From NCBI RefSeq assembly GCF_003172875.1, contig NZ_QGKM01000023.1, positions 62,001-126,000 of the forward strand: 64,000 nucleotides of DNA, given 5' to 3'. Every line of letters begins with the position of its first letter. The stretch's first letter is position 1. This DNA comes from Leucothrix pacifica. Lineage in GTDB: Bacteria > Pseudomonadota > Gammaproteobacteria > Thiotrichales > Thiotrichaceae. Below the pieces are notes generated by a model. It saw only the letters and a list, made by a program, of their open reading frames with translations, made no database searches and had not been told where the DNA came from. Shown here in pieces: positions 6,365-21,520 of this stretch. Position numbers and translations under genes: made by a program.

Positions 6365-7459
6365 TTACAGGTTGACACCGTAACGGTCTTTCAACCACTT
6401 TTTGATCCATGCCTTTGTATTAGGTGCAACTTCTGTACCCAGCTTCTTGAATGCATCCGCCTTAGCCCCGGTTGCCTGCTCGTAGACACCTAAGCGCTTT
6501 TTCGCTTTTTCCGGGAAGTCAGGCTGCGAGGTCACGGCCTTAAATGCATTTGAATAAGTATCAATGATTTCTTGATCAGTACCCTTCGGTAAGAACACCA
6601 TCTTTTGTGCCGGGAAGCCCGCTACAAAGAATGCTTTCCATGCATCCCACGCTTCACCAGAAGGCGCTTCACCTTTGACTTGCGTATAGACTTCTTTAAA
6701 CGTTGGGATGTCCGGGAAGGTTGGATCACGCACAATCTCACCATTGGCATCCAAGGCACCCCAGGTCATGATCGGAACGGCTTTGCCTTCTTTAACCAGA
6801 GGCATGACTTTTGATAAGAATGCACCGGAAGTCTGGTAGTCGATATTGGCTTCGCCACGCTCAAACATTAAACGACCGTCACCGCGACCTTTAATACCGA
6901 ATACCGGATCTACCTTCAGACCTAGCATTGTCCAAGCTAATAATGGAATTAAGTCCAGACGTGTTGCACCCTGTGAACCGAATACAAAGTTAGTATCCAT
7001 GATTGATTTTGGATCTTGCTTCCATTTTGCCGCCAGATCAGCTGGTAAATAAGCAACACCGCCGGTTGCAGACGCCAGAACCACGTTCCAGTCTGCATAG
7101 TCAAACTTCACACGCTTGTCGCCAAGCAGGTATGGGAATTGAGTAGAACCTGATGTACCTAAGATCGTCAGGCCATCATTTTTTGCACGAGATGCGAACC
7201 AGTTAGCCCCTTTGGTCGAACCCGCACCCGGCATATTCTTTACAACAACGTTTGGTTTTCCTGGCAGCTGCTCAGACAACAACGGCGCGTAGAAACGTGC
7301 CCATTTGTCAGAACCACCACCTTCTGAGAACGGAATTACCCAGTCCACGGTTTTACCCGCCATATTAACTTCCGCCATGGCGACAGAAGCGCTACCGAGT
7401 GCCATTGCACTCACTATTGCCTTTAGCAGGGTACGGCGAACAAAGTTTGGCTTTTGCAT
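6365..7459 (-). CDS. TctC-type periplasmic substrate-binding protein
   Basis: This is a Bug/TctC family receptor of 364 residues that binds a carboxylate in the periplasm and delivers it to the TctAB permease. A signal peptide is clear: basic RRTLLK, a hydrophobic stretch, then cleavage near SVAMAEV. The mature part has the family opening VDWVIPFSEGGGSDKWAR and VVKNMPGAGSTKGANWF. The start at 7459 is set by GGAGGAAATCAA directly upstream. It is divergent from the tctD regulator gene, with about 124 bases between, where regulator sites are expected. Confidence 0.9.
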   Translation of the reverse strand: MQKPNFVRRTLLKAIVSAMALGSASVAMAEVNMAGKTVDWVIPFSEGGGSDKWARFYAPLLSEQLPGKPNVVVKNMPGAGSTKGANWFASRAKNDGLTILGTSGSTQFPYLLGDKRVKFDYADWNVVLASATGGVAYLPADLAAKWKQDPKSIMDTNFVFGSQGATRLDLIPLLAWTMLGLKVDPVFGIKGRGDGRLMFERGEANIDYQTSGAFLSKVMPLVKEGKAVPIMTWGALDANGEIVRDPTFPDIPTFKEVYTQVKGEAPSGEAWDAWKAFFVAGFPAQKMVFLPKGTDQEIIDTYSNAFKAVTSQPDFPEKAKKRLGVYEQATGAKADAFKKLGTEVAPNTKAWIKKWLKDRYGVNL

Positions 7460-10827: not shown

Positions 10828-10849
10828 TGGTGCCAGGGCCTGAATCGAA
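10828..10849 (+). repeat. Left attachment site (att), degenerate copy of tRNA-Leu 3' end
   Basis: TGGTGCC-AGGGCC-T-GAATCGAA matches the tRNA-Leu end at 21434-21456 (TGGTGCCCAGGGCC-G-GAATCGAA) in 21 of 23 aligned columns. In tRNA-targeting insertion the original chromosomal 3' end is moved to the far side of the element, and this copy fits that role. Confidence 0.8.
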
Positions 10850-10901
10850 GTAAGTCAATTAACCTATTAAATACAGCAACTTAGAAAATCACTAAAAATA
10901 A

Positions 10902-10921
10902 ATACCAACAATTGTACCAAC
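10902..10921 (+). repeat. Integrase arm-type sites, left (two TACCAAC)
   Basis: ATACCAAC at 10902-10909 and TACCAAC at 10915-10921 repeat the motif found four times beside the integrase gene. Short repeats near both att sites are the usual layout of integrase arm-binding sites. Confidence 0.6.
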
Positions 10922-10967
10922 AAATTAAAACGCCTCACTGTATTTTGCTTAGTTTGTAATCAATATA

Positions 10968-11027
10968 CTGAAGAAGATCACGCTGGCATCGTCACACACC
11001 AGTGCTGAAGAAGATCACGCTGGTATC
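10968..11027 (+). repeat. Direct repeat pair, 23 bases, 37-base period
   Basis: CTGAAGAAGATCACGCTGG followed by (C/T)ATC occurs at 10968-10990 and 11005-11027 with one difference. It lies inside the left end and may be a protein-binding site pair. Confidence 0.7.
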
Positions 11028-11130
11028 AGTCACCCTCTAAATAGGTTCTAAGACTATTTTTATAAAGCCTCTAAAAACTACAAAACCAACCCTATTTAGA
11101 CTTGATACAGGTATTTTATAAACCTCTAAT

Positions 11131-11144
11131 TAGGGTATACCCTA
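11131..11144. repeat. Perfect 14-base palindrome
   Basis: TAGGGTATACCCTA equals its own reverse complement. It sits in a cluster with CTAAATAGG (11037-11045), its reverse complement (11091-11099), and CCTATTTATAG (11141-11151). It could be an operator or part of an origin. Confidence 0.6.
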
Positions 11145-11185
11145 TTTATAGAACATATTCCCGACACCAAGAAAATGATACACAC

Positions 11186-11211
11186 AAAAAAGCCGGAATA
11201 ATTATCCGGCT
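11186..11211 (-). terminator. Intrinsic terminator of the eight-gene element operon
   Basis: On the minus strand AGCCGGA, a seven-base loop and TCCGGCT are followed by TTTTTTGTG. It lies 25 bases past the stop of the last operon gene. Confidence 0.85.
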
Positions 11212-11236
11212 CTCGTTCTGCGACTGGTTACGCTTG

Positions 11237-12679
11237 TCAGGGTGAATTGATCCAAGTACCCGTTTGATTCTCTTTCACTGAGTAGACTATCTGACAATCG
11301 GTGCAGCCTACTTGCCCGTTCCATGCTTTTAGGTTGGATTCTGAGACGCTCGTTTTTTTGCCACACTCAGGACAAGCCGATCTATACATTAGCTCCCCTT
11401 CTCCGGTCTGGTCGGTTGGTAATACGAATTCAGGATTGACGATATATTTAGCCACAACCTGACCACCTTTTCCGAAGTCTGGATTATCCAAAATAACCCG
11501 CTCATCTTTCAGTCTTTCCAGTATCTCACCTGCTTTCTGTTGACGTTCTGCATCAGTTACAAAACTAACATTCATCTTCACCAGCTTACTTTTTATAGGT
11601 CGCTGTGTTGGCTTAATTTCACCGATTAACACTCCGTCCCTGATTTGCTCATAATGCGTTTCTGAATAGTCGATTTTACCGCCCTTCTCAGTATCAACAT
11701 TTGGTGTACGTACACCAGCATCATTTTCACTATTTGAAACCGCCCCCGCCATTGAATCAACTGGTGCGGGGCGGTTTTCAATGTCACCACTTGAACCCTT
11801 GTTAGAATTCACGCTTTCAGCTTGTCGGGGAAGTGCTTTAGCCGGGACTTTTTCACGCTGTAAAAACCCGTTAAATCGATTAGCTAAGGGTGAAAGTTCA
11901 TGGTTTGCCGCTTGGAAATTTGAACCGTCTGAATTCCAGTCATGAGCCTTTTTCGCCTTCAAACTAAACGCTGGCATAGCCACAAGGGGATTGATATACA
12001 CGGCATGAAACATAGACACGAATAGTGCACCAAAACTGCACGCGATACTGAATAGCATGATTGTGATGTATTGTTCATCGCTGCCGGATTCAAGCATTTG
12101 AACGGGCTTCTTTAACGTGTGACTTGCTTCCTGTTGGGCAATGTCTACCAGTCGGTTTTGATACGCTGCCTTAGCATCAAGGATTGCTATCTGCCTAGAT
12201 TCTGAATTGTGTATCAGGCTTGCTCTGGCGATGGCTGCGTCTCTGGTGATGGCTGCCGATCGTTTCATATTGGCGAATGATGAAGCGCCTACACTGTAAG
12301 ACGCTGTTTGAGTATCCCGTCTATCAGCATCAGCTAATTGACTATTCACACCAGCAAACACCGCCATACAAGCGATGACACAAGCGAATAGGGCCTGTAT
12401 GAATACACCAAACGACAAACCGTCTAATCGATAGCTTGTCACCAGTGATTTGCCCAATGGTATTTCTAACGCTGCAATACCCGTTCCGGCTGCATAAAGC
12501 ATCACTGACCAAATGAATAAACTCTCTGCCGTTGTTAGCTTGGAATCTAAGAAATTGCCCATGTGGTAGCTGTTCACCAGTACCAGTGACACGGCGATTA
12601 ACATCAACAAAGCACCGAACAAACGAGATGCACCTACACTGTGCCCGGCTATAACTTGATTTCTAAATACTGCGCTCAT
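11237..12679 (-). CDS. Element membrane protein with C-terminal zinc ribbon, unknown function
   Basis: I do not recognise this 480-residue family. Hydrophobic segments lie near residues 18-38, 52-74, 86-112 and 202-228. A soluble, alanine-rich, possibly coiled-coil stretch (about 113-200) lies between the third and fourth. The second half is polar, low in complexity around 250-330, and ends in a CPEC-x19-CTDC zinc ribbon (about residues 436-462). It is the last and longest gene of the operon and starts with an ATGA overlap. A membrane-anchored regulator or an entry or exclusion factor would fit the architecture, but nothing in the sequence decides this. Confidence 0.75.
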   Translation of the reverse strand: MSAVFRNQVIAGHSVGASRLFGALLMLIAVSLVLVNSYHMGNFLDSKLTTAESLFIWSVMLYAAGTGIAALEIPLGKSLVTSYRLDGLSFGVFIQALFACVIACMAVFAGVNSQLADADRRDTQTASYSVGASSFANMKRSAAITRDAAIARASLIHNSESRQIAILDAKAAYQNRLVDIAQQEASHTLKKPVQMLESGSDEQYITIMLFSIACSFGALFVSMFHAVYINPLVAMPAFSLKAKKAHDWNSDGSNFQAANHELSPLANRFNGFLQREKVPAKALPRQAESVNSNKGSSGDIENRPAPVDSMAGAVSNSENDAGVRTPNVDTEKGGKIDYSETHYEQIRDGVLIGEIKPTQRPIKSKLVKMNVSFVTDAERQQKAGEILERLKDERVILDNPDFGKGGQVVAKYIVNPEFVLPTDQTGEGELMYRSACPECGKKTSVSESNLKAWNGQVGCTDCQIVYSVKENQTGTWINSP

Positions 12680-12885
12680 GATAGTTTTCTCCGAGTAACC
12701 AAATAAAGTTCAACACCGTACTGATTAACGCCCTGATAGTTGAGAAACACTTCCCAACCATAGGCACGCTGTTGGATAACGTATGAATCACGTGATAGTT
12801 CATCTTTGAAAGTCATAGATTCAGTCATTGCTTGCTGCTCCTGTACTGGCATTGGGATAACTAACTGCTCCGCTGTTGCACTCAT
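12676..12885 (-). CDS. Small element protein (69 aa), unknown
   Basis: Unrecognised. It has a short acidic-polar N-terminus and then a basic, aromatic half (YVIQQRAYGWEVFLNYQG, ending LVTRRKLS) that looks like a compact beta domain. It has no signal peptide or membrane segment. It overlaps the genes on both sides by ATGA, which supports real translation. Confidence 0.65.
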   Translation of the reverse strand: MSATAEQLVIPMPVQEQQAMTESMTFKDELSRDSYVIQQRAYGWEVFLNYQGVNQYGVELYLVTRRKLS

Positions 12886-13094
12886 CGGCTCACCTCCATT
12901 CTGTGCAAGTCATTGGTTAAGGTGTTGAAGCAGTCCTCAAGGTCGCTTGCTTCCTGATCCGCTTGAAGCTTCAGCAACTTGATATAAGCCACCATCGGAT
13001 TCCAACCGATAGCGGCCAAACCAGTGAAGGGAATATACGCTTGGTGCTGGCTGCCGTACCGCTCAATAATCACGCCGTTAATTGATAGCTTCAT
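12882..13094 (-). CDS. Small element protein (70 aa), unknown
   Basis: Unrecognised. The N-terminal half reads as beta strands (MKLSINGVIIERYG, AYIPFTGLAAIGW) and the C-terminal half as an amphipathic helix (LLKLQADQEASDLEDCFNTL). Four-base overlaps with both neighbours place it in the operon. Confidence 0.65.
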   Translation of the reverse strand: MKLSINGVIIERYGSQHQAYIPFTGLAAIGWNPMVAYIKLLKLQADQEASDLEDCFNTLTNDLHRMEVSR

Positions 13095-13294
13095 ACTTCC
13101 CCCATTGCTTCGCGTTCCGCTGCTTCATAGGCTTCTGACTCGTAACCCTCAATTTTATTTAGCAAAGTTCTCTCCTCATCTGTTAAGTCACTTTCATTAA
13201 CCAAGTAGTGAGAAATTAACGCCAACTCATTCACGGTCAATTGGCAATTGATAACGGTCATTCCTAATTCATGCTCATCTATTAGCAAGCTCAT
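13091..13294 (-). CDS. Small acidic element protein (67 aa), unknown
   Basis: Unrecognised and strongly acidic, predicted mainly helical from about residue 20 (VNELALISHYL; LTDEERTLLNKIEG). Its ATG overlaps the stop of the Rep_trans gene (ATGA), so its translation is probably coupled to Rep. Small acidic proteins after a replication gene are sometimes DNA mimics or Rep partners, but nothing here shows that. Confidence 0.65.
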   Translation of the reverse strand: MSLLIDEHELGMTVINCQLTVNELALISHYLVNESDLTDEERTLLNKIEGYESEAYEAAEREAMGEV

Positions 13295-14568
13295 GCTGCC
13301 ACCTCCTGAACATCGAAGATAAATTCCTTCAAACCATCCGAACGGGTCAACCAGTCGATAATTTGCTGAAGTTCTAAGCCTTCATCCTGTAGCGTTTTGA
13401 GTAATCGCCCGTAACTATGCTTTGCCCAATACACTTTCTTGGCAATAGATAGGCTTTTTTCTCGCTGAAAGTTGGATAGTTGAACCTGCTGTACACGCTC
13501 CAAGCTTAAAGAGGCGCGGTATTCGTGCATTAATTGACGAACGCCTGAACGATCTAGCGCAAAGTATTCATCGGGCCTTAACATCACGTCTAAAGGTATC
13601 TCGCGGCCTGTACCCTTGCGGCTCATTTCATGCTCAACACGTACCCAAGCGCGGTCCATGCTTTCCGGTTCCGCTTCAGCACCGAGTAGCTCCTTGCCTT
13701 TCTCATAAATCCTGAAGAAGTCCGCTGAACCTTTACGGCTGCCAATGTATGCAGTCAATCCGGCTGGACAATGCTCTATAGGGTCATAGCTTTCAGGGGT
13801 AACACCACCAACCAGCAAGGTTGACCAATCACCCGCAATAGAACTGGTTTGTTTCATATTTGGATTGCGTAGCTTGTCGGACTTGAACAACCCGTTATTG
13901 ATAGCCTCACCGTATAGTGAAGGCACGGTATAACCATGCTCTAGGCAGTATTCGCCATCAAGGTCTAAGGCTATGTCTATGCGACTGAAACGCCATTCAA
14001 ATTCAATGAATAGGGAATAAAGCTCTAACCATAGATCGGGGTATTGAAGCTGCAACCACTTACAACCAACACCCGTTAATTCAATCATGCCGCCTTTGTT
14101 GCGTCCTGCTTCAGCCATGGCAATATGACCAATGGTTAAATTGTCGTTATCTCGCTGTAGCAACAATTTGGCGCTCTGGTCGTAACCGTGTAAGCCTTTC
14201 TCAGTCCATCGGACTATGACATTAGCTTGATCCAGAATACCGCCTTTAGAGTCAACATCGCTCATGGTAGAAATGAAGCTTTCAAGGTCAGTACAGGTGG
14301 CGCGTAGCCAATCGATCTTAGTTACCTGTAACCCGTTTTTAGCCTGTTTTTTGGTAGGTAACCCATAACCCCCCGTATTACAGTACGGGGGATAAGTCGC
14401 GCTTTGCGCTCCTTTAAAATCAACACCTTGCAACATGTCACCGACAACCATGCCGCCCACATTATTAGATTTTAGCGATTGGAGCGCCTCGCGTTCTGCC
14501 TGTAGCTCCTTTGCTTGGTTCCGGTGTTTACGTGCTTTTTCAATGTGTCCCTTTGGTAGGTTCATCAT
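13291..14568 (-). CDS. Rep_trans-type replication initiator or relaxase
   Basis: A 425-residue protein resembling the replication initiation factor family (PF02486 type) that includes pT181-like Rep, CTX phage RstA and Tn916-type MobT. These proteins nick one DNA strand through a tyrosine. Supporting segments are IDWLRATC (about 93), FEWRFSRIDIALDLDG (about 190-205), LTAYIGSRKGSADFFRIYEKG (about 270-290, the family core) and AWVRVEHEMSRKG (about 305-317). It overlaps its neighbours by ATGA at both ends. It may drive rolling-circle replication of the excised circle or start mobilisation; sequence does not separate the two. Confidence 0.72.
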   Translation of the reverse strand: MMNLPKGHIEKARKHRNQAKELQAEREALQSLKSNNVGGMVVGDMLQGVDFKGAQSATYPPYCNTGGYGLPTKKQAKNGLQVTKIDWLRATCTDLESFISTMSDVDSKGGILDQANVIVRWTEKGLHGYDQSAKLLLQRDNDNLTIGHIAMAEAGRNKGGMIELTGVGCKWLQLQYPDLWLELYSLFIEFEWRFSRIDIALDLDGEYCLEHGYTVPSLYGEAINNGLFKSDKLRNPNMKQTSSIAGDWSTLLVGGVTPESYDPIEHCPAGLTAYIGSRKGSADFFRIYEKGKELLGAEAEPESMDRAWVRVEHEMSRKGTGREIPLDVMLRPDEYFALDRSGVRQLMHEYRASLSLERVQQVQLSNFQREKSLSIAKKVYWAKHSYGRLLKTLQDEGLELQQIIDWLTRSDGLKEFIFDVQEVAA

Positions 14569-14729
14569 GCCAACACCTCACGACTTAACCAACGGTTCCC
14601 CAAACAAGCTTGTAAGGCTGGCTTTTGCTTTTCTGGTGTGTTTGTTAGGCGCTTGCTGATTTCGCCTTGTACTAGGCTTACACGCTCCACGAATGGCAGT
14701 ATCTTTGTATTGGGATTAGGCTTACTCAT
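14565..14729 (-). CDS. Small element protein (54 aa), unknown
   Basis: Unrecognised. The start at 14729 is set by GGAGGTGAACGA and by the ATGA overlap with the upstream stop; a longer start at 14753 lacks a site. It is polar with one short helix (VERVSLVQGEISKRL). It directly precedes the Rep gene and overlaps it by four bases, so it may couple Rep translation. Confidence 0.6.
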   Translation of the reverse strand: MSKPNPNTKILPFVERVSLVQGEISKRLTNTPEKQKPALQACLGNRWLSREVLA

Positions 14730-15172
14730 TCGTTCACCTCCGTTACACGCCACAATTCAAGCATTCCCGCCGCAATAACGAATCCCGCGGGTTCGATCAC
14801 ATCCGAACCTATGCACCAGTGAGTATGATTGACCTCAGGAATATTAGAGATAGTGGAAAACACCAAGCGCAGATAAAGCTCATAGGCTTCTGACTGCTTA
14901 AAGTCGGGATGCTCACAGGCTTGATAGTTCCAGCACTTACAGGCTGATAGCACTTGCGGCCATTGCGTTTCAAGTCGGTAAAACGTGAAGGAATAACGTT
15001 CCTCTTCGTCGAATTTCTCACGGTAACGATAGGCTACAGATTTGTGATTTTCCTTCAGCAACACCTCACCAATACGGTTAATCTCTAAGGGTGTGTCCTG
15101 AATGATCTGGTATTGAATAGCCGCTGATACAAGGTAGGAAATATGCTCATCTGGTAGAACGTATGCACTCAT
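14726..15172 (-). CDS. Mobile-element protein of unknown function (148 aa)
   Basis: No known function. It resembles, from memory, a family seen in phages and integrative elements that starts with an MSAYVLP...HI-like segment, has a SVAYRY segment and a cysteine motif of the form CWNYQACEHP (about residues 80-90). No catalytic motif or membrane segment is visible. It overlaps both neighbours by four bases. Confidence 0.65.
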   Translation of the reverse strand: MSAYVLPDEHISYLVSAAIQYQIIQDTPLEINRIGEVLLKENHKSVAYRYREKFDEEERYSFTFYRLETQWPQVLSACKCWNYQACEHPDFKQSEAYELYLRLVFSTISNIPEVNHTHWCIGSDVIEPAGFVIAAGMLELWRVTEVNE

Positions 15173-15513
15173 GATTCACCCCCGAACGTGTCAGTAATGA
15201 ATTCAATGGCTTCCTGAAGGGTAAAGAAGTCTGCTGTTTCTAAGTTCTGGCCTCTCTGCGTCTGCCTGAAGTAAGACACGTCAACAAAACTGCATTCTTT
15301 CGGCTGTAAGTCCTGTTGGCCTTTGTGGTAGCCCGATACTATCCAAGCAATAGGATTATTGGCACGGTAAACGATTAAGCCGGTATCAGTCACAGAAAGC
15401 GTTATTTCACCCTGTAACGTGGTTTTAGCTGGTGCATAGGGAATTGATTCAACTACCGCGCTGAATGCGGGTAGTGGTGCGCCTGTTGGACGCAATAAGG
15501 TTGGTGCGGTCAT
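15169..15513 (-). CDS. First gene of the element operon (114 aa), unknown
   Basis: Unrecognised, soluble, mixed alpha/beta protein (ITLSVTDTGLIVYRANNPIAW; DFFTLQEAIEFITDTFG at the C-terminus). It has a strong site (AGGAGTCATACT) before the ATG and opens the eight-gene operon after a hairpin-rich leader. Its stop overlaps the next start (ATGA). Confidence 0.65.
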   Translation of the reverse strand: MTAPTLLRPTGAPLPAFSAVVESIPYAPAKTTLQGEITLSVTDTGLIVYRANNPIAWIVSGYHKGQQDLQPKECSFVDVSYFRQTQRGQNLETADFFTLQEAIEFITDTFGGES

Positions 15514-15800
15514 AGTATGACTCCTACGGAATTATATAAGTGACACAAAAGGTCAGGAGCTTATAAACGTCCGTAAGAAACGCCGAAAAGGCCTTTCCAC
15601 TTTTTAGCGGTCTTGTATAGCCTAATCACTCCCGACTATACCGCCGATTGTGAATTGTGCAGCTATCTCAAAACCGCCTGAAGCGGTAATATGCCGCTTA
15701 CGTCTTTCTATAAGTCCCGCCTATGTGCGGTTAATGGCTCCGATCTCTCGGGCCTGCTATTAAGATAATGCTTTGGTGTTTATTTGGTCTAATGATAAAA

Positions 15801-15828
15801 ATTCATAGATTGTTTGTTATCTATGAAT
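15801..15828. repeat. Perfect 10-base inverted repeat with 8-base loop
   Basis: ATTCATAGAT, loop TGTTTGTT, ATCTATGAAT. It has no T-run on either side, so it is more likely an operator or DNA hairpin than a terminator. Confidence 0.6.
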
Positions 15829-15867
15829 ATTGGTAATAGATTGAATTAGGTTCCGTTTTTGTCAGGC

Positions 15868-15893
15868 AAAAAAAAGCCACTCAAAAGAATGGC
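15868..15893 (-). terminator. Intrinsic terminator after the 19154-16038 gene set
   Basis: On the minus strand GCCATTC, loop TTTT and GAGTGGC (one G-T pair) are followed by eight T. It separates the AlpA/FinO-like gene set from the Rep operon. Confidence 0.75.
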
Positions 15894-15924
15894 AAAGTGC
15901 TATCAGGGGAGTGATTAGCAAGTA

Positions 15925-16020
15925 TTACTCAGGAACCATTGCACGACCACCAAGCATGGAGTCTAACACTTGGTTGACCGCTGCCAGTATTCCCGCGCTT
16001 GCGGTGTCTCTGTCTGGCAA
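15925..16020 (-). CDS. Possible 31-aa small gene
   Basis: A reading frame with coding-like composition (LPDRDTASAGILAAVNQV.., ending GRAMVPE) lies between the 119-aa gene and the terminator. The only usable start is TTG at 16020, with no well-placed ribosome site, or an unknown start upstream. It could also be a remnant of a longer C-terminus lost by frameshift. Confidence 0.25.
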   Translation of the reverse strand: MPDRDTASAGILAAVNQVLDSMLGGRAMVPE

Positions 16021-16037
16021 TTCCTGATTTATTATTG

Positions 16038-16397
16038 TTAATCAGAACCATACTCGATAAGGGTTAATCGTTCCCAGTCAATTCCAAGTGCATCCAATAC
16101 GCCGCGCTCATCTTCGTGTTCAATACCAATCAAGCTTATCAGCTCCTTATCGTTGATAGGACTAGAAACAATTTCGTGATAATGCTTGTATTGCTCAGGC
16201 TCTAATATTTCTTGCGAACCTTGGTTGTAAACCCCTGCGACTAGATACAGGTATCCGGCAGCATCAGCGCCGCGCTTGATTTTATAAATACACCACCGTT
16301 CCGAAGGTTTAGCCATGTAAAAAACCACTTGAACGGCTTTAATCTTCACCGTAGGTTTGTCATCTGACTTTAGGGTAATTTCTGTGACTTTATCCAT
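16038..16397 (-). CDS. Element protein (119 aa), unknown
   Basis: Unrecognised, soluble and acidic toward the C-terminus. Strand-rich N-terminal half (TVKIKAVQVVFYMAKPSERW) and a helical C-terminal half (GVLDALGIDWERLTLIEYG). It follows the FinO/ProQ-like gene after a 20-base perfect palindrome. No motif suggests a function. Confidence 0.6.
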   Translation of the reverse strand: MDKVTEITLKSDDKPTVKIKAVQVVFYMAKPSERWCIYKIKRGADAAGYLYLVAGVYNQGSQEILEPEQYKHYHEIVSSPINDKELISLIGIEHEDERGVLDALGIDWERLTLIEYGSD

Positions 16398-16437
16398 AAT
16401 CGCTTAGTCTCCAAGAATAAAAAAAACAACACCATAC

Positions 16438-16457
16438 CAACCTGATTAATCAGGTTG
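16438..16457. repeat. Perfect 20-base palindrome
   Basis: CAACCTGATTAATCAGGTTG is its own reverse complement. It lies between the FinO/ProQ-like gene and the 119-aa gene. A T-run begins about 12 bases past it on the minus strand, too far for a standard terminator, so an operator is the likelier role. Confidence 0.65.
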
Positions 16458-16458
16458 A

Positions 16459-17007
16459 TTACTTGCGCCGCTTGCGTGTTTTGGCGCGTTTCTCTGCCGC
16501 TCGTTCTGCCTCAACTCTCACCAGTCGCTTTGCTGCAATACTGGCACGTTCCCAACTCACCAAACCTGTTTGGTTGTCATCAAGATCATAAATAGGTGCA
16601 TCCATGATTGAATTCTTCAGGTAATTGATAGCATTCGTCTGCTTTTTGATTAGCGCCTTTACCACTCGCTTACTTGCTGATAGGTGGCGCGCTCCAATGA
16701 ATTGAAAGACTTGTTTTTCTATGTCATGCGATAGTGGTTGCATTGAACGCCAAGCTTTTGAATGACTTGATAGTGCTTTGTTTAGCTCAGCACCACGTAT
16801 GACAGACGGATTAACACGCTTTTTTTTCTTTGGTGGTGGTTGTGGTTGCTTCTTCTTCGGCTTGTCGAATGTTAATACCCGTTTATTCGTGCGTAGAATC
16901 GCCGCTGGTGCGTTTTCTTCGCTTTCTGGTGTATTGGTGGCTGTGGAGCGTTTGCGCTTGATTATGAGCGTTTTACGTGGTTTATCGTCTGACACTATTT
17001 TCAACAC
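16459..17007 (-). CDS. FinO/ProQ-type RNA-binding protein
   Basis: The C-terminal part (about residues 70-170) fits the ProQ/FinO RNA chaperone domain. The shared pattern is W then PL-x3-I (AWRSMQPLSHDI), an LS helix (LSASKRVVKALI), YL (INYLKNS), then YDLDDNQTGLVS and a closing A-x3-L helix. The N-terminal 60 residues are basic and proline/lysine-rich (KKKQPQPPPKKKKR), as in plasmid FinO proteins. Such proteins stabilise sRNA-mRNA pairs; on plasmids they control transfer or copy number. The start is uncertain: GTG 17007, TTG 17004 or GTG 16995, with AGAGGA just upstream. Confidence 0.65.
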   Translation of the reverse strand: MLKIVSDDKPRKTLIIKRKRSTATNTPESEENAPAAILRTNKRVLTFDKPKKKQPQPPPKKKKRVNPSVIRGAELNKALSSHSKAWRSMQPLSHDIEKQVFQFIGARHLSASKRVVKALIKKQTNAINYLKNSIMDAPIYDLDDNQTGLVSWERASIAAKRLVRVEAERAAEKRAKTRKRRK

Positions 17008-17025
17008 TCCTCTGACTACATAAGG

Positions 17026-17238
17026 TTAATCAGCATTATTACCCGCCTTGACTATTTTTTCCAATTCATCCAAGGCTTCATCTGACAACTTTGTTAAATC
17101 TAGTTTTCCAGCTTCATCCGTAAATTCATAAATTTCCTTTTTTGTAGCATCGGTCAATAAGTTAAAGTCAGCCTGACTATCTTCCTGCTTTGGCTCTAAG
17201 GCTTCAACTCGTTTAATCATGCGTTTTGCTTGCATCAT
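17026..17238 (-). CDS. Small acidic element protein (70 aa), unknown
   Basis: Unrecognised. Helical and acidic, with a possible coiled coil at both ends (AKRMIKRVEALEPK; LSDEALDELEKIVKAG). It lies between the DUF5681 gene and the FinO/ProQ-like gene, with 13 and 18 bases to its neighbours. A second in-frame ATG follows the first, so the start may be 17235. Confidence 0.6.
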   Translation of the reverse strand: MMQAKRMIKRVEALEPKQEDSQADFNLLTDATKKEIYEFTDEAGKLDLTKLSDEALDELEKIVKAGNNAD

Positions 17239-17251
17239 TATTTCTGTCCCT

Positions 17252-17701
17252 TTAATTGGTCTTATTTAATTCTAACGCTTCAATCCTTAGCTCTAAATCT
17301 GCAAGGTCTACCGATTGCCTGAATTTATCGGCCATAGAAACCAACGAATTTAATTCCTCAATACTCAACGCGCCATCACCTAACAAGGTATTCAATGACG
17401 CATAAAACGCCGGAAGGTCAGACAAGCTTTGTAATGGTGGCAAGTCTACCGCTGGAATTGGAGCGTGCTTAATTGGTGGGGCTATCCTGTCGAGACATAA
17501 CCTGATCGCAGTTATATCGCCACCTTTAGCCGCTTCAATCGCTTCCTTTGTGATAGCTTCGGCTTCATCCTTGAACAAACTATAAGCTGCTAGTGTCGTT
17601 TTGTTTCTGCTTCCCCGTGGTCTGCCGTTGGGGTTGCCTGAAACACCTTTTTCAAACCTACTACTCTGTTTTTTTTCTGTATTTTCAGATAAATCATTCA
17701 T
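17252..17701 (-). CDS. DUF5681 domain protein (149 aa)
   Basis: The N-terminal segment SRFEKGVSGNPNGRPRGSRNK is the DUF5681 signature, a basic segment common in phage and mobile-element proteins. The rest is helical. The role is unknown; some relatives sit before phage terminase genes, but no terminase is present here. AAGGA lies 12 bases before the ATG. A long non-coding stretch separates it from the replication-like gene upstream. Confidence 0.72.
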   Translation of the reverse strand: MNDLSENTEKKQSSRFEKGVSGNPNGRPRGSRNKTTLAAYSLFKDEAEAITKEAIEAAKGGDITAIRLCLDRIAPPIKHAPIPAVDLPPLQSLSDLPAFYASLNTLLGDGALSIEELNSLVSMADKFRQSVDLADLELRIEALELNKTN

Positions 17702-18083
17702 TATTTTTTTTAATCCTTTTTCTTATCGTCTAGTGATGTCGGAAAAATCGGGGTTTAAGTTTTTCACTCACGAACCAGCCATTCCTAATATGTTTAAACT
17801 CGGTAGTAGCTCAGGGGGAAACCCCCTGCACCCCCCAGTTTGGCAAAGAGTGAAAATTAGTAGTTCTTTTTCTCCTTCATACTTAACCCCATGAATTAAC
17901 ACACTGTTAAGCGTTGAAGCCTCGCGGGGGCGTGTTTCGCTTCGCTTGCGTATCCCTTCGGGCTACCTAGTTCCGTTCTTTGAATTTAAAAAGCAGTAAC
18001 CTGAAAGTTCTTCTCTATCTATATTAACTACATATATAGGTAAAAAGTTATCGCAAAAAACAAAAAACAAATATAAAAAACAA
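17702..18083. other. Non-coding stretch: GC hairpin and AT-rich tract beside the iterons
   Basis: No gene is seen. A perfect CAGGGGG/CCCCCTG hairpin lies at 17812-17828, followed by a C-run. A GC-rich segment lies at 17920-17975. From about 17990 to 18100 the sequence is very AT-rich and directly adjoins the iteron-like array. This is the usual order of an unwinding region next to iterons in a theta-type plasmid origin, but no clear DnaA box is visible. Confidence 0.5.
17812..17828. repeat. Perfect 7-base GC stem, 3-base loop
   Basis: CAGGGGG AAA CCCCCTG, followed by GCACCCCCCAG. It is too stable and isolated to be chance. A transfer-origin or replication hairpin is possible; no T-run makes a terminator unlikely. 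Confidence 0.55.
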
Positions 18084-18566
18084 TCACTTAATCAGTTTTA
18101 AGGGTGGGACTGTGGTTCCCTTCATCAGGGACTGTGGTTCCCTGTCATGGGGGACTGTGGTTCCCTTCATCAGGGACTGTGGTTCCCTGTCATGGGGGAC
18201 TGTGGTTCCCTTCATCAGGGACTGTGGTTCCCGCCTCTTAAAATTAAGATTGTTCCATTGCTCCCTTATTTGCTTTCCCGAACCTTCGTATCGCATACCG
18301 TAATCAGGATTAATCATAAAAGCACCGTCTGACTTATTGCGGATAACATCAGCGTTTTTTAATGTCTGAAGGATTGTTTTAAATGCGTCGAGTGGTTCCG
18401 CTGCTTTGCTAGTTGTCTTTTTCATAAATTTAATTTTCAGATCAACACTCAGATGAACAAGGTTCATTTCATCCATCCGAGTTCGCATCAGGTCAAAAAT
18501 GGCGCGGGTGTTATTGTTCACACCCAACGCACAAAGCCTGTAATCATTTCGATATGGTGAGGCCAT
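18084..18566 (-). CDS. Replication-initiator-like winged-helix protein with repeated C-terminus
   Basis: Residues 1 to about 115 look like a winged-helix plasmid replication protein: helices (NTRAIFDLMRTRM; AFKTILQTLKNADVI), then a wing and the segment GAFMINPDYGMRYEGSGKQ, which recalls RepL-type proteins. The family call is weak. The last 45 residues are two and a half copies of REPQSLMKGTTVPHD, encoded by a phased array of 15-base units (18106-18232). The start shares one base with the upstream stop (TGATG). If it is the initiator, it carries its own binding sites inside its coding region. Confidence 0.55.
   Translation of the reverse strand: MASPYRNDYRLCALGVNNNTRAIFDLMRTRMDEMNLVHLSVDLKIKFMKKTTSKAAEPLDAFKTILQTLKNADVIRNKSDGAFMINPDYGMRYEGSGKQIREQWNNLNFKRREPQSLMKGTTVPHDREPQSLMKGTTVPHDREPQSLMKGTTVPPLKLIK
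18106..18232 (+). repeat. Six-unit iteron-like array
   Basis: GGGACTGTGGTTCCC occurs six times without a change, starting at 18106, 18128, 18151, 18173, 18196 and 18218. Spacers alternate between TTCATCA and TGTCATGG, so units recur every 22 or 23 bases, about two helical turns. That spacing is typical of plasmid iterons. Each unit has GGGA/TCCC ends. The array lies in the 3' end of a replication-like gene, next to an AT-rich tract. Confidence 0.85.
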
Positions 18567-18886
18567 CAGTCACTACCTAGCATCGCCTTCGCTTTGGTAA
18601 GTGATCCAGTATCAAGGCAGTATTCACCATACCTGCACGGCTTCCCGTCCTGATCCCGTCCTTTGTGCCACGATAGGCTAATAAATAAACCTCGGTTTCG
18701 TAGCTGTCTAATGGTTTCGGCTGGATTATTTCCGGCAACGCCCAATAACTCCCGAACTGTTGTGCTTGCTTTGATTAAACGAATCAGTACACGCTTTTGA
18801 CGAGGGCAAGATATTATATTTATGTTATTCTTTGCCTTAGGACTTGGGGCTGCTTCATTTTTTGGGGTGGCCTTTTTTGTGTTCAT
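18566..18886 (-). CDS. Helix-turn-helix element protein (106 aa)
   Basis: A basic, disordered N-terminus (NTKKATPKNEAAPSPKAKNN) is followed by a winged-helix-like domain (RVLIRLIKASTTVRELLG; AETIRQLRNRGLFISLSW) with a wing rich in charged residues. It is probably a DNA-binding protein. The start at 18886 is chosen because AGGTGG precedes it and it begins one base after the AlpA stop; an earlier ATG at 18919 lies inside the AlpA gene. Regulation of replication or excision would fit. Confidence 0.6.
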   Translation of the reverse strand: MNTKKATPKNEAAPSPKAKNNINIISCPRQKRVLIRLIKASTTVRELLGVAGNNPAETIRQLRNRGLFISLSWHKGRDQDGKPCRYGEYCLDTGSLTKAKAMLGSD

Positions 18887-18887
18887 T

Positions 18888-19154
18888 TTATGCCACCTCC
18901 CCAGCTTTCTTGGTTTCATCTGGGTGTTCTGTACCTACAGGGGGTAACCCTTCCTTACCAAGCTTCCTAACATATGGACACTCCCACCGGCTTGTTCGTG
19001 TAGATAGCTTTAGTGGTTTTTTAATGCGTCCCTGTTTCACATACAACCACCAGCTTGATACTCCAATCCCTAAGAATTTACTCGCTGGTTTAGCACCGGT
19101 TAAGCCGTCATATGCAATTGTATTGGTTTGGTTTGTCATAAAGTTTTTACTCAC
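18888..19154 (-). CDS. AlpA-like regulator or excisionase (88 aa)
   Basis: It resembles AlpA/MerR-type short helix-turn-helix proteins of integrated elements, with FLGIGVSSWWLYVKQGRIKKPLKL as the recognition helix and wing (residues about 28-50). In P4-like elements, AlpA turns on int and excision. It heads a minus-strand gene set (alpA, HTH gene, replication-like gene) with 1-base spacings. The start could also be the second ATG at 19139. Confidence 0.65.
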   Translation of the reverse strand: MSKNFMTNQTNTIAYDGLTGAKPASKFLGIGVSSWWLYVKQGRIKKPLKLSTRTSRWECPYVRKLGKEGLPPVGTEHPDETKKAGEVA

Positions 19155-19192
19155 TATTGAATTAACTTGTCGTTATTAAACAGTAGAGTAGT

Positions 19193-19248
19193 TGGGGTGG
19201 TGCAAGTGGGGTGGTGGGGTCTTTTTGGTGGGGTGGTGGGGTCTTTTT
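19193..19248. repeat. G-rich direct repeat (C-rich on the minus strand)
   Basis: TGGGGTGGTGGGGTCTTTTT occurs at 19207-19226 and 19229-19248 (22-base period), preceded by another GGGGTGGTG at 19194. On the plus strand several G4 runs could form a quadruplex. On the minus strand, the direction of transcription here, the RNA would be C-rich and G-poor like a Rho loading site. It lies just past the stop of the 226-aa gene and before alpA. Confidence 0.65.
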
Positions 19249-19928
19249 TACCCTGAACCTAAAAAATTGCCCTTTTTTGCATATTTCCAAATATCATTAA
19301 AGGTGCTGCGCTCGATTAGAAACAATTCTGGATACTTTTCACCGCACCTCATAAACACTTCTTGTTTTATTTTACTTATTTCTCCTGCATTCATTGGGTC
19401 ACACCCCAATTCTTTCACTACCTCAACTAACGCAGCACATTGCTTGTCGCGCCTTCCTGATACAGGCTCTTTTTTTTGCATTATCCGGCTTAGGTCAATA
19501 ACCAACTTTTCAAGCTCAAACACTATGGATGCTCGTTCCAGCATATTACCTTCGCAGTCTTCACTTTGTATAATCGGTGTAGATAAAGACTCCAAAAACT
19601 CGCAACAATTACCCCCTCTATAGGCTTCCTCTAGTCCTTCACTGTATGGAATAAAAAGTCCATCATTGCAAAATTCTTGTTTTGAAAATGAATAACCATA
19701 AACCGATCCAGTTGAGTGCAACTCTGCTTCTTCATAATCCGGCACCCTGACATATTCACACCAGACACCAATCCTACCGCGCTCTAGTGATCCGTTTTTA
19801 GTCGTTACAAACTTAACGGAACCAAAAACAGGCATTAAAAAACATTCTTTACCCATGTTTAGCCTGAAGGCTTCAGTCATGCTTAGGCTGTGGCTTGCGG
19901 CATATTCACTTAATTTTTGAACGTTCAT
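19248..19928 (-). CDS. Element protein (226 aa), unknown
   Basis: Unrecognised, soluble and cysteine-containing. The C-terminal 60 residues are helical and read like a domain of their own (CAALVEVVKELGCDP; STFNDIWKYAKKG). AGAGGTG precedes the ATG. It lies between integrase and alpA, the place where islands often carry a regulator or cargo gene. No motif supports a function. Confidence 0.65.
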   Translation of the reverse strand: MNVQKLSEYAASHSLSMTEAFRLNMGKECFLMPVFGSVKFVTTKNGSLERGRIGVWCEYVRVPDYEEAELHSTGSVYGYSFSKQEFCNDGLFIPYSEGLEEAYRGGNCCEFLESLSTPIIQSEDCEGNMLERASIVFELEKLVIDLSRIMQKKEPVSGRRDKQCAALVEVVKELGCDPMNAGEISKIKQEVFMRCGEKYPELFLIERSTFNDIWKYAKKGNFLGSG

Positions 19929-19964
19929 CTATAGCACCTCTCATGCTCAGCCTTTCAATAAAAG

Positions 19965-20017
19965 CCACACCAGACAGTGAAAGGAATCTGCTTTTCGCCC
20001 CGTCGGGCTAGGTGTGG
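19965..20017 (-). terminator. Hairpin with T-run after the integrase gene
   Basis: On the minus strand CCACACC (20017-20011) pairs with GGTGTGG (19971-19965) across a long loop that contains a second small stem (GCCC/GGGC at 19997-20008), and CTTTTATT follows. It could end integrase transcription. Confidence 0.4.
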
Positions 20018-20029
20018 TGGTTTGCTCTG

Positions 20030-21256
20030 TTACGCCTGATTGCGCTTGATAGGTATTACATCAGCACCAGAACGCAATGAATCCAAGTAATCAGCATAGC
20101 TTTGCATCATCTTCACTCGTTCATCCCAATATTGAGCGCGATTATATGCCGCTCTCACCTTGTCGCCTTGCTGGTGGGCAAGTTGCGCCTCGATAGCATC
20201 AGGGTTCCAACCCTGCTCATTCAGTAGACTTGACGCCATGCCTCGGAATCCATGACTTACCATTTGGTCACGTGAAAAACCAAGCCGCCTTAATGCTGCA
20301 TTGAATGTATTTTCAGAAAGTGGTCGATCTTTGGAGCGTAGCCCATGAAACACATACTTAGCATCACGTGTATGCTCTACCATGCTTTCCAATATCGATA
20401 TTGCCTGCTTTGACAATGGGACTTTGTGCTCGCGTCTACTTTTCATCTTACCCGCCGGAATAATCCAGACTGCCAAGTCTATGTCTATCTCAGTCCATTC
20501 CATGTGACGAAGTTCACCCGGTCTACACATCAGATAAGGCAATAGGTTGATAGCTTGCTTGGTGGTGTAGTCGCCTTGATACTCTGCCAAGGCACGAAGA
20601 AGCGCCCCAACCTCTAAAGGCTTGGTGATCGTTGGGTAATGCTTTTCTCTAATTGGTGGTAATGCGCCGCGAAGGTCTGCCGCTGCATCACGCTTGCATT
20701 TACCAGTAGCTACGCCATACCGGAATACACGGCCTGCCGCCTGTTTTACTTCATGGGCTAAATAGATGGAGCCACGCTCCACCACGATATTACATGCCGC
20801 TAATACTTCCGGTGGTTCTATCTCGCTGATAGGCTTTTCACCGATAACAGGAAATAGATCACGCTCCAAATATTTCCACACCTTCGCTCTGTGGTTCGCT
20901 GTCCACCCTTCCGAGAATTTAGCAAACCATTCAGAAGCGATATTTTCAAAGCTGTCTTGGTGCTTTGCTTTCTCTGCCTGCTTTTCGGCTTGCCTTTCTT
21001 GACTAGGGTCAACACCACGCGCCAATAGTTCACGCGCTTCATTATGCCGATCTCTGGCAAGGCTTAATCCGATCTCAGGGTATACGCCTAAAGATAGTGT
21101 TTTCTGCTTTTTGTCGAATCTGTAGTTATACCGCCAATATTTTCCGGTTGTGGATACCTGAAGAAATAAACCACCACCATCAGATAGCTTGCTTACTTTG
21201 CCGTCTGGTTTGGTTTTGGCTGCTTTTATCTGTCTATCTGATAGCTTGCGCTGCAT
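20030..21256 (-). CDS. P4-type tyrosine integrase
   Basis: A 408-residue site-specific recombinase for integration into tRNA-Leu. The N-terminal DUF4102 domain starts KLSDRQIKAAKTKPDGK; a SAM-like core-binding domain follows at about 90-180. The catalytic domain has the first arginine in LMCRPGELRHMEW, H-x2-R in SHGFRGMASSLLNEQGW, and the tyrosine in the AAYNRAQYWDERVKMMQ region. The start at 21256 has GAGGGG upstream; an earlier ATG in the same frame lies in the arm-site region. It lies about 180 bases from the tRNA end, the usual place. Confidence 0.93.
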   Translation of the reverse strand: MQRKLSDRQIKAAKTKPDGKVSKLSDGGGLFLQVSTTGKYWRYNYRFDKKQKTLSLGVYPEIGLSLARDRHNEARELLARGVDPSQERQAEKQAEKAKHQDSFENIASEWFAKFSEGWTANHRAKVWKYLERDLFPVIGEKPISEIEPPEVLAACNIVVERGSIYLAHEVKQAAGRVFRYGVATGKCKRDAAADLRGALPPIREKHYPTITKPLEVGALLRALAEYQGDYTTKQAINLLPYLMCRPGELRHMEWTEIDIDLAVWIIPAGKMKSRREHKVPLSKQAISILESMVEHTRDAKYVFHGLRSKDRPLSENTFNAALRRLGFSRDQMVSHGFRGMASSLLNEQGWNPDAIEAQLAHQQGDKVRAAYNRAQYWDERVKMMQSYADYLDSLRSGADVIPIKRNQA

Positions 21257-21279
21257 TGTTGGCCCCTCAAAAATGATAG

Positions 21280-21344
21280 ATACCAACACAATAAAACACG
21301 ATACCAACATTAATACCAACTTTTGAATTGGATTCTGTTGGTAT
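21280..21344. repeat. Integrase arm-type sites, right (four ATACCAAC)
   Basis: ATACCAAC at 21280-21287, 21301-21308 and 21313-21320 in direct order, and its reverse complement GTTGGTAT at 21337-21344. The array lies between the integrase start and the tRNA att site, so the integrase may also repress its own promoter. Confidence 0.65.
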
Positions 21345-21433
21345 TGCTTAGACTAACTTGGATATAAGAAAGTCTGTAAAGCTAGTAAATACAAGGGTTC
21401 TTAGGCTGTTTTGGATTAACTTAGATAGTGATT

Positions 21434-21520
21434 TGGTGCCCAGGGCCGGAATCGAACCGGCACGGTATTTCTACCGAGGGATTTTAAGTCCCTTGCGTCT
21501 ACCAATTTCGCCACCTGGGC
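21434..21520 (-). tRNA. tRNA-Leu (UAA)
   Basis: An 87-base tRNA with encoded CCA. Acceptor GCCCAGG/CCTGGGC, anticodon loop CTTAAAA (anticodon UAA), long variable arm CTCGGTAGAAATACCG as expected for leucine, and T-loop GGTTCGATTCC. It is last in a four-tRNA minus-strand unit and is the integration target; its sequence is intact. Confidence 0.97.

Follow-up and report, generated by a model that had tools for sequence, protein, structure and literature searches.

The window, i.e. the whole stretch of 64,000 nucleotides from Leucothrix pacifica that was analysed, carries an array of repeats within the gene for a 160-aa protein that is predicted to form a winged helix (18084-18566, minus strand). 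This gene belongs to an integrative element of about 10.6 kb, which is inserted at a tRNA-Leu gene and whose likely borders are two attachment (att) repeats. The right att repeat (21434-21456) lies in the 3' end of the tRNA-Leu gene (21434-21520), beside a gene for a tyrosine integrase (20030-21319, minus strand; Pfam domains Arm-DNA-bind_3, Phage_int_M and Phage_integrase), and the left att repeat (10828-10849) is identical to it in 21 of 23 alignment columns, with one gap and one mismatch. The alignment score of the left repeat is 17, compared with 12 for the next-best place in the window. Near the left repeat (10968-11027) there are also two 23-bp direct repeats, 96% identical and with starts 37 bp apart, which are possibly arm or excision sites of the integrase.

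Read along the minus strand, on which all of the genes described here are located, the integrase is followed by a 226-aa gene (19248-19928) lacking any Pfam match, whose stop codon is abutted by a second repeat consisting of 22-bp units (19193-19250), and then by an 88-aa gene (18888-19154), which occupies the position where a related locus (L010) has AlpA (PF05930). The product of this 88-aa gene has no Pfam match and only a weak match to a PHROG excisionase (E 0.055). Next are a 117-aa gene of the HTH_39 winged-helix type (18566-18919), which overlaps by a single base, its last, with the start of the 160-aa gene, and then the latter with its array. After a gap (17702-18083), in which there is no minus-strand ORF of at least 50 aa and part of which is overlapped by a 97-aa TTG ORF on the plus strand, the order continues with a DUF5681 gene (17252-17701, Pfam), a gene for a ProQ/FinO-domain protein (16459-17007, Pfam), small genes, a gene for a Rep_trans/RstA-like replication initiation protein (13291-14568; Pfam, PHROG and homologue matches) and a 480-aa gene (11237-12679), which is 55% identical to a gene of another element from the same genus (L028). 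The ProQ/FinO-domain gene has matches in the related loci L029, L030, L031 and L032. In the best 20 of 72 records, the Rep_trans product shows 22.7-27.5% identity to RstA-type phage replication proteins.

The array consists of six identical 15-bp units (18106-18120, 18128-18142, 18151-18165, 18173-18187, 18196-18210 and 18218-18232; no strand is assigned to it), which are exact copies of GGGACTGTGGTTCCC spaced at 22, 23, 22, 23 and 22 bp. When three mismatches were tolerated, no unit beyond these six was found in the 64-kb window, and none of 100 dinucleotide shuffles contained more than three matches. The exact unit is also seen nowhere else in the 5.0-Mb host genome; one additional site with two mismatches is attributed to background, since a control search with the reversed pattern gave 8 sites at two or fewer mismatches. 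Exact patterns of two adjacent units were absent from genome contigs and viral contigs, a 29-base piece of the array was absent from viral contigs, and blastn of the region 17700-19200 against phages gave no match. Each unit shows a weak dyad with the arms GGGA-N7-TCCC. The best description of the array by TRF is a 45-bp unit present in 2.8 copies with 100% match and, based on this, the alternation of 22 and 23 bp comes from a single dimeric 45-bp block that has been repeated; as 45 is a multiple of 3, every such block is open once one block is open. In the direction of the gene, the array is followed on its 3' side by an A+T-rich tract (18000-18099; 77% A+T, versus 42-46% across the array), which is a candidate unwinding element.

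The array had been described in an earlier note based on the same DNA, and its account of six identical 15-base units at 22 or 23 bp, now borne out by both the exact scan and TRF, of the adjoining A+T-rich tract and of the translation of the repeats (for the minus-strand ORF 18084-18566) is correct. However, its statement that all of the units are on the same face of the helix is overstated, as the distance of 112 bp between the first and the last unit corresponds, by arithmetic at 10.5 bp per turn, to about 10.7 turns, so that neighbouring units are roughly in phase while the array as a whole slowly rotates. The alternating spacer, which was regarded in that note as unusual, has its simple explanation in the repeated dimeric block.

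In two respects the arrangement is of the iteron type, viz. conserved direct repeats stand in tandem about two helical turns apart, and an A+T-rich region adjoins them. No second set of iterons of a different sequence was detected by TRF beyond the A+T tract. The DnaA-box motif TTWTNCACA does not occur in exact form within 10828-21456, which is a weak test limited to exact matches, as about one is expected by chance. DnaA boxes are not needed by all iteron replicons.

The array is located at the 3' end of the 160-aa gene, where it codes for approximately residues 112-154. In the orientation of the gene the unit is GGGAACCACAGTCCC, and its copies start alternately in two frames, giving REPQSL and KGTTVP. 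The reading of one 15-mer in two frames suggests that it is the DNA rather than the peptide that is conserved; more broadly, six identical copies that encode unrelated peptides in two frames point to either a DNA-level constraint or a recent duplication, and the sequence data fit both. In the predicted structure of the 160-aa protein (based on an alignment of 3 sequences; mean pLDDT 67), a winged helix is formed by approximately residues 5-108, whereas the tail encompassing residues 109-160 has pLDDT values below 50. As this tail is predicted to be disordered, the folded part of the protein need not, according to the model, depend upon the portion encoded by the array.

Comparisons of the predicted fold retrieved only generic winged helices, ranging from Fur/PerR and Crp regulators to ORC subunits; Foldseek gave no match at an E value of 0.001 or better, and comparison with the PDB by sequence and fold revealed no specific relative. 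The match of the protein to the Pfam RepL profile (PF05732) is marginal, with a score of 21.2 bits against a cut-off of 20.3, and it covers only positions 80-140 of 164 of the profile. In a scan of the genome the gene scored 20.1 bits, exceeding the cut-off only when neighbours in the frame were included, and it was outscored by a different gene of that genome. RepL matches were present in 55 of 369 genomes, many of them Crp-like by eye, and neither of the two homologues of the 160-aa protein matched RepL at E ≤0.1. A survey of repeats at the ends of ORFs in 30 RepL-survey loci, for which the ORFs were picked by position (often not the matched one, and none in six loci), constitutes evidence neither way. 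At the same threshold (E ≤0.1), the 160-aa protein has no match to the lambdoid O family in Pfam or PHROGs, and RepA_N (PF06970) is not among its Pfam matches; the comparison of structures leaves a shared fold with the latter possible. The designation of the gene as replication-like in the earlier note depends on the marginal RepL match.

Matches to the 160-aa protein were found in 3 of 144 genomes, inclusive of that of the window, and the two other homologues (in the loci L037 and L038) are 26 and 28% identical to it. In both of these loci repeats are present at the same place of the gene, and their sequence is palindromic and different from that in the window. In L037 there are two units spaced by 22 bp, one in the gene and one across the stop codon (the motif was loosened in order to include this locus), and in L038 there are three, spaced by 22 and 24 bp, of which the first is in the gene, the second spans the stop codon and the third follows it. 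Between the two loci, 47 of 52 bases agree in the array and 20 of 22 just after the stop codon. For the core of the gene the agreement at the first, second and third codon positions is 99/114, 101/113 and 83/113, which are bare counts from a small sample, and the core appears to be under constraint (dN/dS about 0.17). Behind the array both loci contain, by eye, DNA resembling insertion sequences. Tandem repeats of other kinds were also seen in these two elements, which are from the same family, with 21.3 copies of CCGTGGGACAT in L038 (14576-14809) and, in L037 (15506-15625), a TGTCCC unit of 22 bp in 5.5 copies.

Among 63 genomes of the family, the Rep_trans gene is present in 8 (its own included) and the HTH_39 gene in 4; a profile of the latter matched 11 of the 369 genomes searched for the class. 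In the same 369 genomes, profile A1 detected only the window's own gene. No match was obtained by tblastn of the 160-aa protein, its L010 homologue and the HTH_39 protein in 72,556 plasmid and 50,697 phage records, or in the related-locus search that employed the 160-aa, L010-homologue, HTH_39 or Rep_trans proteins or small alignments. Twenty larger loci were fetched, ten of which (L028, L029, L031, L034-L038, L079 and L080) could be judged. Two weak Rep_trans matches (G033 and G060) were left out of the set and L081-L087 were dropped, having weak HTH_39 matches (E 8e-5 to 8e-4) and no integrase by eye; L032 and L033 stop before the module, and L030 shows by eye no gene of this kind between its integrase-like and ProQ genes.

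In 7 of the 10 judged loci an array is present in or behind the gene that occupies the position of the 160-aa gene; the repeat motifs in these loci were picked after inspection. Besides L037 and L038, these are L034, L029, L079, L035 and L031, in all five of which this position is taken by another gene, including (by Pfam) a Prim-Pol gene in L031 and genes for AAA_25 ATPases in L029 and L035. The placement of the units varies. In L079 five 9-mers, 11 bp apart, are found in the last third of the gene, where they are read in all three frames. L029 has two units inside the gene, in the same frame, and three more 304-348 bp behind it, round the end of a small ORF. In L035 all five units are behind the gene, starting 1 bp after its stop codon, and in L034 one unit is inside the gene and two are behind it, with irregular spacing of 77 and 66 bp. 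In L031 (11677-11916), twelve copies of ACATACAG in both orientations form an origin-like region 453-685 bp behind the Prim-Pol gene and beyond a small ORF. No array was found in L028, which shares the Rep_trans gene and has a KilAC gene at the array position, or clearly, by eye, in L036, and L080, with short repeats about 540-630 bp behind a 213-aa gene, was counted neither as having nor as lacking an array.

A test that requires no motif, in which repeated 8-mers within 500 bp round the stop codon were compared with 200 shuffles, placed four of the eight sequences above all shuffles, viz. the window (76; maximum in shuffles 8), L029 (40; 5), L035 (11; 3) and L034 (9; 7). The values for L038 (2; 4), L037 (0; 2), L031 (0; 4), whose array falls outside the 500 bp covered, and L028 (0; 4) did not exceed the shuffles, and higher scores were reached elsewhere in the loci L034, L035 and L038. 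L034, likewise from an element of the same family, also contains 4.5 tandem copies of TTGCATTGCAC (6653-6735), preceded by 2.9 copies of CCACGGGACAG, and a Phage_GPA gene (1228-2919) within an element that carries the HTH_39 module, so that the second replication gene may be swapped too. The 171-aa protein of L034 is, like the 160-aa protein, predicted to be a winged helix with a disordered tail (from a single sequence; mean pLDDT 62); hhalign shows no relation between the two.

The second 22-bp array has counterparts as well. Over or at the stop codon of the gene between the integrase and the AlpA position, such arrays are present in the window (19193-19250), L031 (15702-15763) and L035 (8770-8835), and the units look alike in the first two (A-rich plus CCACC-type), whereas their sequence differs in L035. 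By eye, the equivalent genes of L028, L029, L034 and L079 are not followed by such an array. A grouping of the seven proteins encoded between the integrase and the AlpA position into one family was tried and rejected, as their alignment was too poor.

If the array consists of iterons that are bound by the winged-helix product of its own gene, then together with the A+T tract it would form the replication origin of the 10.6-kb element, and this interpretation we hold to be slightly on the probable side. In such a case, the element would first be excised, the winged-helix protein would then bind the six sites and help in opening the adjacent A+T-rich tract, and a replisome of the host or of a helper would be loaded there. 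What is inferred here is that the protein binds the array, that the array acts as an origin, that the A+T tract takes part in this, and that the peptide tail is a by-product of a constraint acting on the DNA. In favour of this interpretation are the exact repeats with a weak dyad inside a gene for a predicted winged helix, the reading of an identical 15-mer in two alternating frames within a tail of very low pLDDT, the A+T tract alongside, and the arrays at the same gene position in L037, L038 and five further loci. The small-sample comparison of L037 with L038 points the same way, with 20 of 22 bases shared just after the stop codon against 83 of 113 at third codon positions of the core, as does the lack of an array in L028, where a KilAC gene takes this position. 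Against it, the RepL match is marginal, the winged-helix fold is common to transcription regulators, the element has another replication gene (Rep_trans), the search for exact DnaA boxes was negative (weak evidence), and there is one set of iterons, in contrast to the E. coli PICIs (phage-inducible chromosomal islands) discussed below. In the relatives the motifs were chosen post hoc, L038, L037, L031 and L028 do not exceed the shuffles in the test without a motif, L036 has no clear array, L034 is irregular and the array of L031 is behind a following small ORF. Moreover, the arrays that abut the 226-aa gene here and its counterpart in L031 indicate that arrays behind genes need not be origins. 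Of the iteron origin proposed in the earlier note, the direct repeats, weak dyad, A+T tract, predicted DNA-binding gene, mobile element and arrays in several relatives stand; the initiator role of the 160-aa protein, whose fold is that of a generic winged helix, is putative.

A serious rival to the iteron origin, if on balance an unlikely one, is that the six sites in this gene end are operators, to which a winged-helix regulator encoded by the same gene would bind in order to control either the downstream DUF5681-ProQ-Rep_trans genes or its own expression. The common occurrence of this fold in regulators would be in accordance with this, as would the location of the array, which comes after the stretch coding for the folded part and before the following genes of that strand, and also the second 22-bp array, which abuts the 226-aa gene upstream of the 88-aa gene; indeed, it is this 22-bp array, together with those of L031 and, differing in sequence, L035, that keeps this explanation alive. 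However, the array is within coding sequence, roughly 400 bp short of the next start codon, no sigma-70-like site was found on the minus strand at 17600-19300 (a weak test, as only 2.6 are expected by chance), and arrays are also present behind a Prim-Pol and two AAA_25 genes. It is improbable that the array is instead a neutral minisatellite, formed by duplication of a 45-bp block in a tolerant gene end and without any site function. The complete identity of the 45-bp blocks, as after a recent duplication, the predicted disorder of the encoded tail and the preservation of the open frame by blocks of this length would all be expected from it, but the 15-mer is already doubled inside the block, with other spacers and in another frame, and related loci carry arrays of different sequence at the equivalent gene position.

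Highly improbable is a function in RNA, in which the GGGA and TCCC arms pair in the mRNA for processing or attenuation: although RNA of the gene strand across the array folds better than all 200 shuffles (z -3.8), arms that are complementary and repeated would give such folding anyway, the copies are predicted to pair with one another in a single long nested stem instead of forming separate hairpins, and no site was detected at the array in a terminator scan. Equally improbable is a centromere-like partition or incompatibility site, with which direct repeats at regular spacing and a small protein that binds DNA would likewise be compatible, but no ParA-type Pfam match exists among the ten element proteins scanned.

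Going beyond the iteron origin at this one locus, it is possible, and we put this forward with considerable doubt, that some of the integrative elements found in this class of bacteria, as a group, swap their replication gene (winged helix, AAA_25 ATPase or Prim-Pol) and keep a matching array in, across or close behind its 3' end, so that the initiator and its sites travel as one cassette and the disordered tail of the winged-helix protein serves mainly to host sites in two or three frames. Confidence in this has been lowered due to the irregular spacing in L034 and the position of the L031 array beyond another ORF. If true, such elements would possess a compact cassette of initiator plus origin with the sites carried in a tolerant protein tail, the origins of uncharacterised integrative elements could be sought by examining the 3' ends of genes for DNA-binding proteins, and the odd repeat tails on such proteins would be accounted for.

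The embedding of iterons in an initiator gene is known in principle from gene O of lambda, and the origins of PICIs are also precedents. The present case differs in the location within a predicted disordered tail and, if it holds, in the conserved position of the array across swapped genes. The likeness to lambdoid gene O consists of inverted-repeat iterons and an A+T-rich tract within the coding sequence of an initiator, whose length grows with the number of iterons; the O protein of Stx phages is 13 residues longer when its gene has two additional iterons (PMC7466680). The link between iteron number and protein sequence, as proposed in the earlier note, is thus already known from this gene. 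However, lambdoid phages have their origin midway along O, whereas here the array is in a predicted disordered C-terminal tail of a protein that does not match the O family in Pfam or PHROGs.

With the PICIs the element shares its small size, integrase and attachment sites, and in these islands the origin, with iterons and an A+T-rich region, directly follows the gene for replication initiation on its 3' side (PMC6092414). According to the same paper, AlpA homologues are present in all E. coli PICIs; the gene in the AlpA position here has a weak PHROG match and no Pfam match. In the E. coli PICIs illustrated there, two iteron sets flank the A+T region, whereas here one set was found, no primase is present among the element proteins scanned with Pfam, and an RstA-like gene is present. 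For the lytic replicon of P1, oriL is postulated to be in the second half of repL, and synonymous changes in an A+T-rich part of repL impair RepL-dependent amplification (PMC9948254). The likeness would be in an origin within the second half of an initiator gene; the difference is that the word "iteron" is absent from the main text of that source. Lastly, although no RepA_N match was obtained here in Pfam and the repeats of PLE are in a non-coding region (PMC7145576), the RepA_N initiators (PLE RepA, pSK41 and pTZ2162) are similar in that their DNA-binding domain binds semi-palindromic direct repeats and in that one of these cases is a chromosomal island of a Gram-negative bacterium (PMC7145576, PMC8263062).
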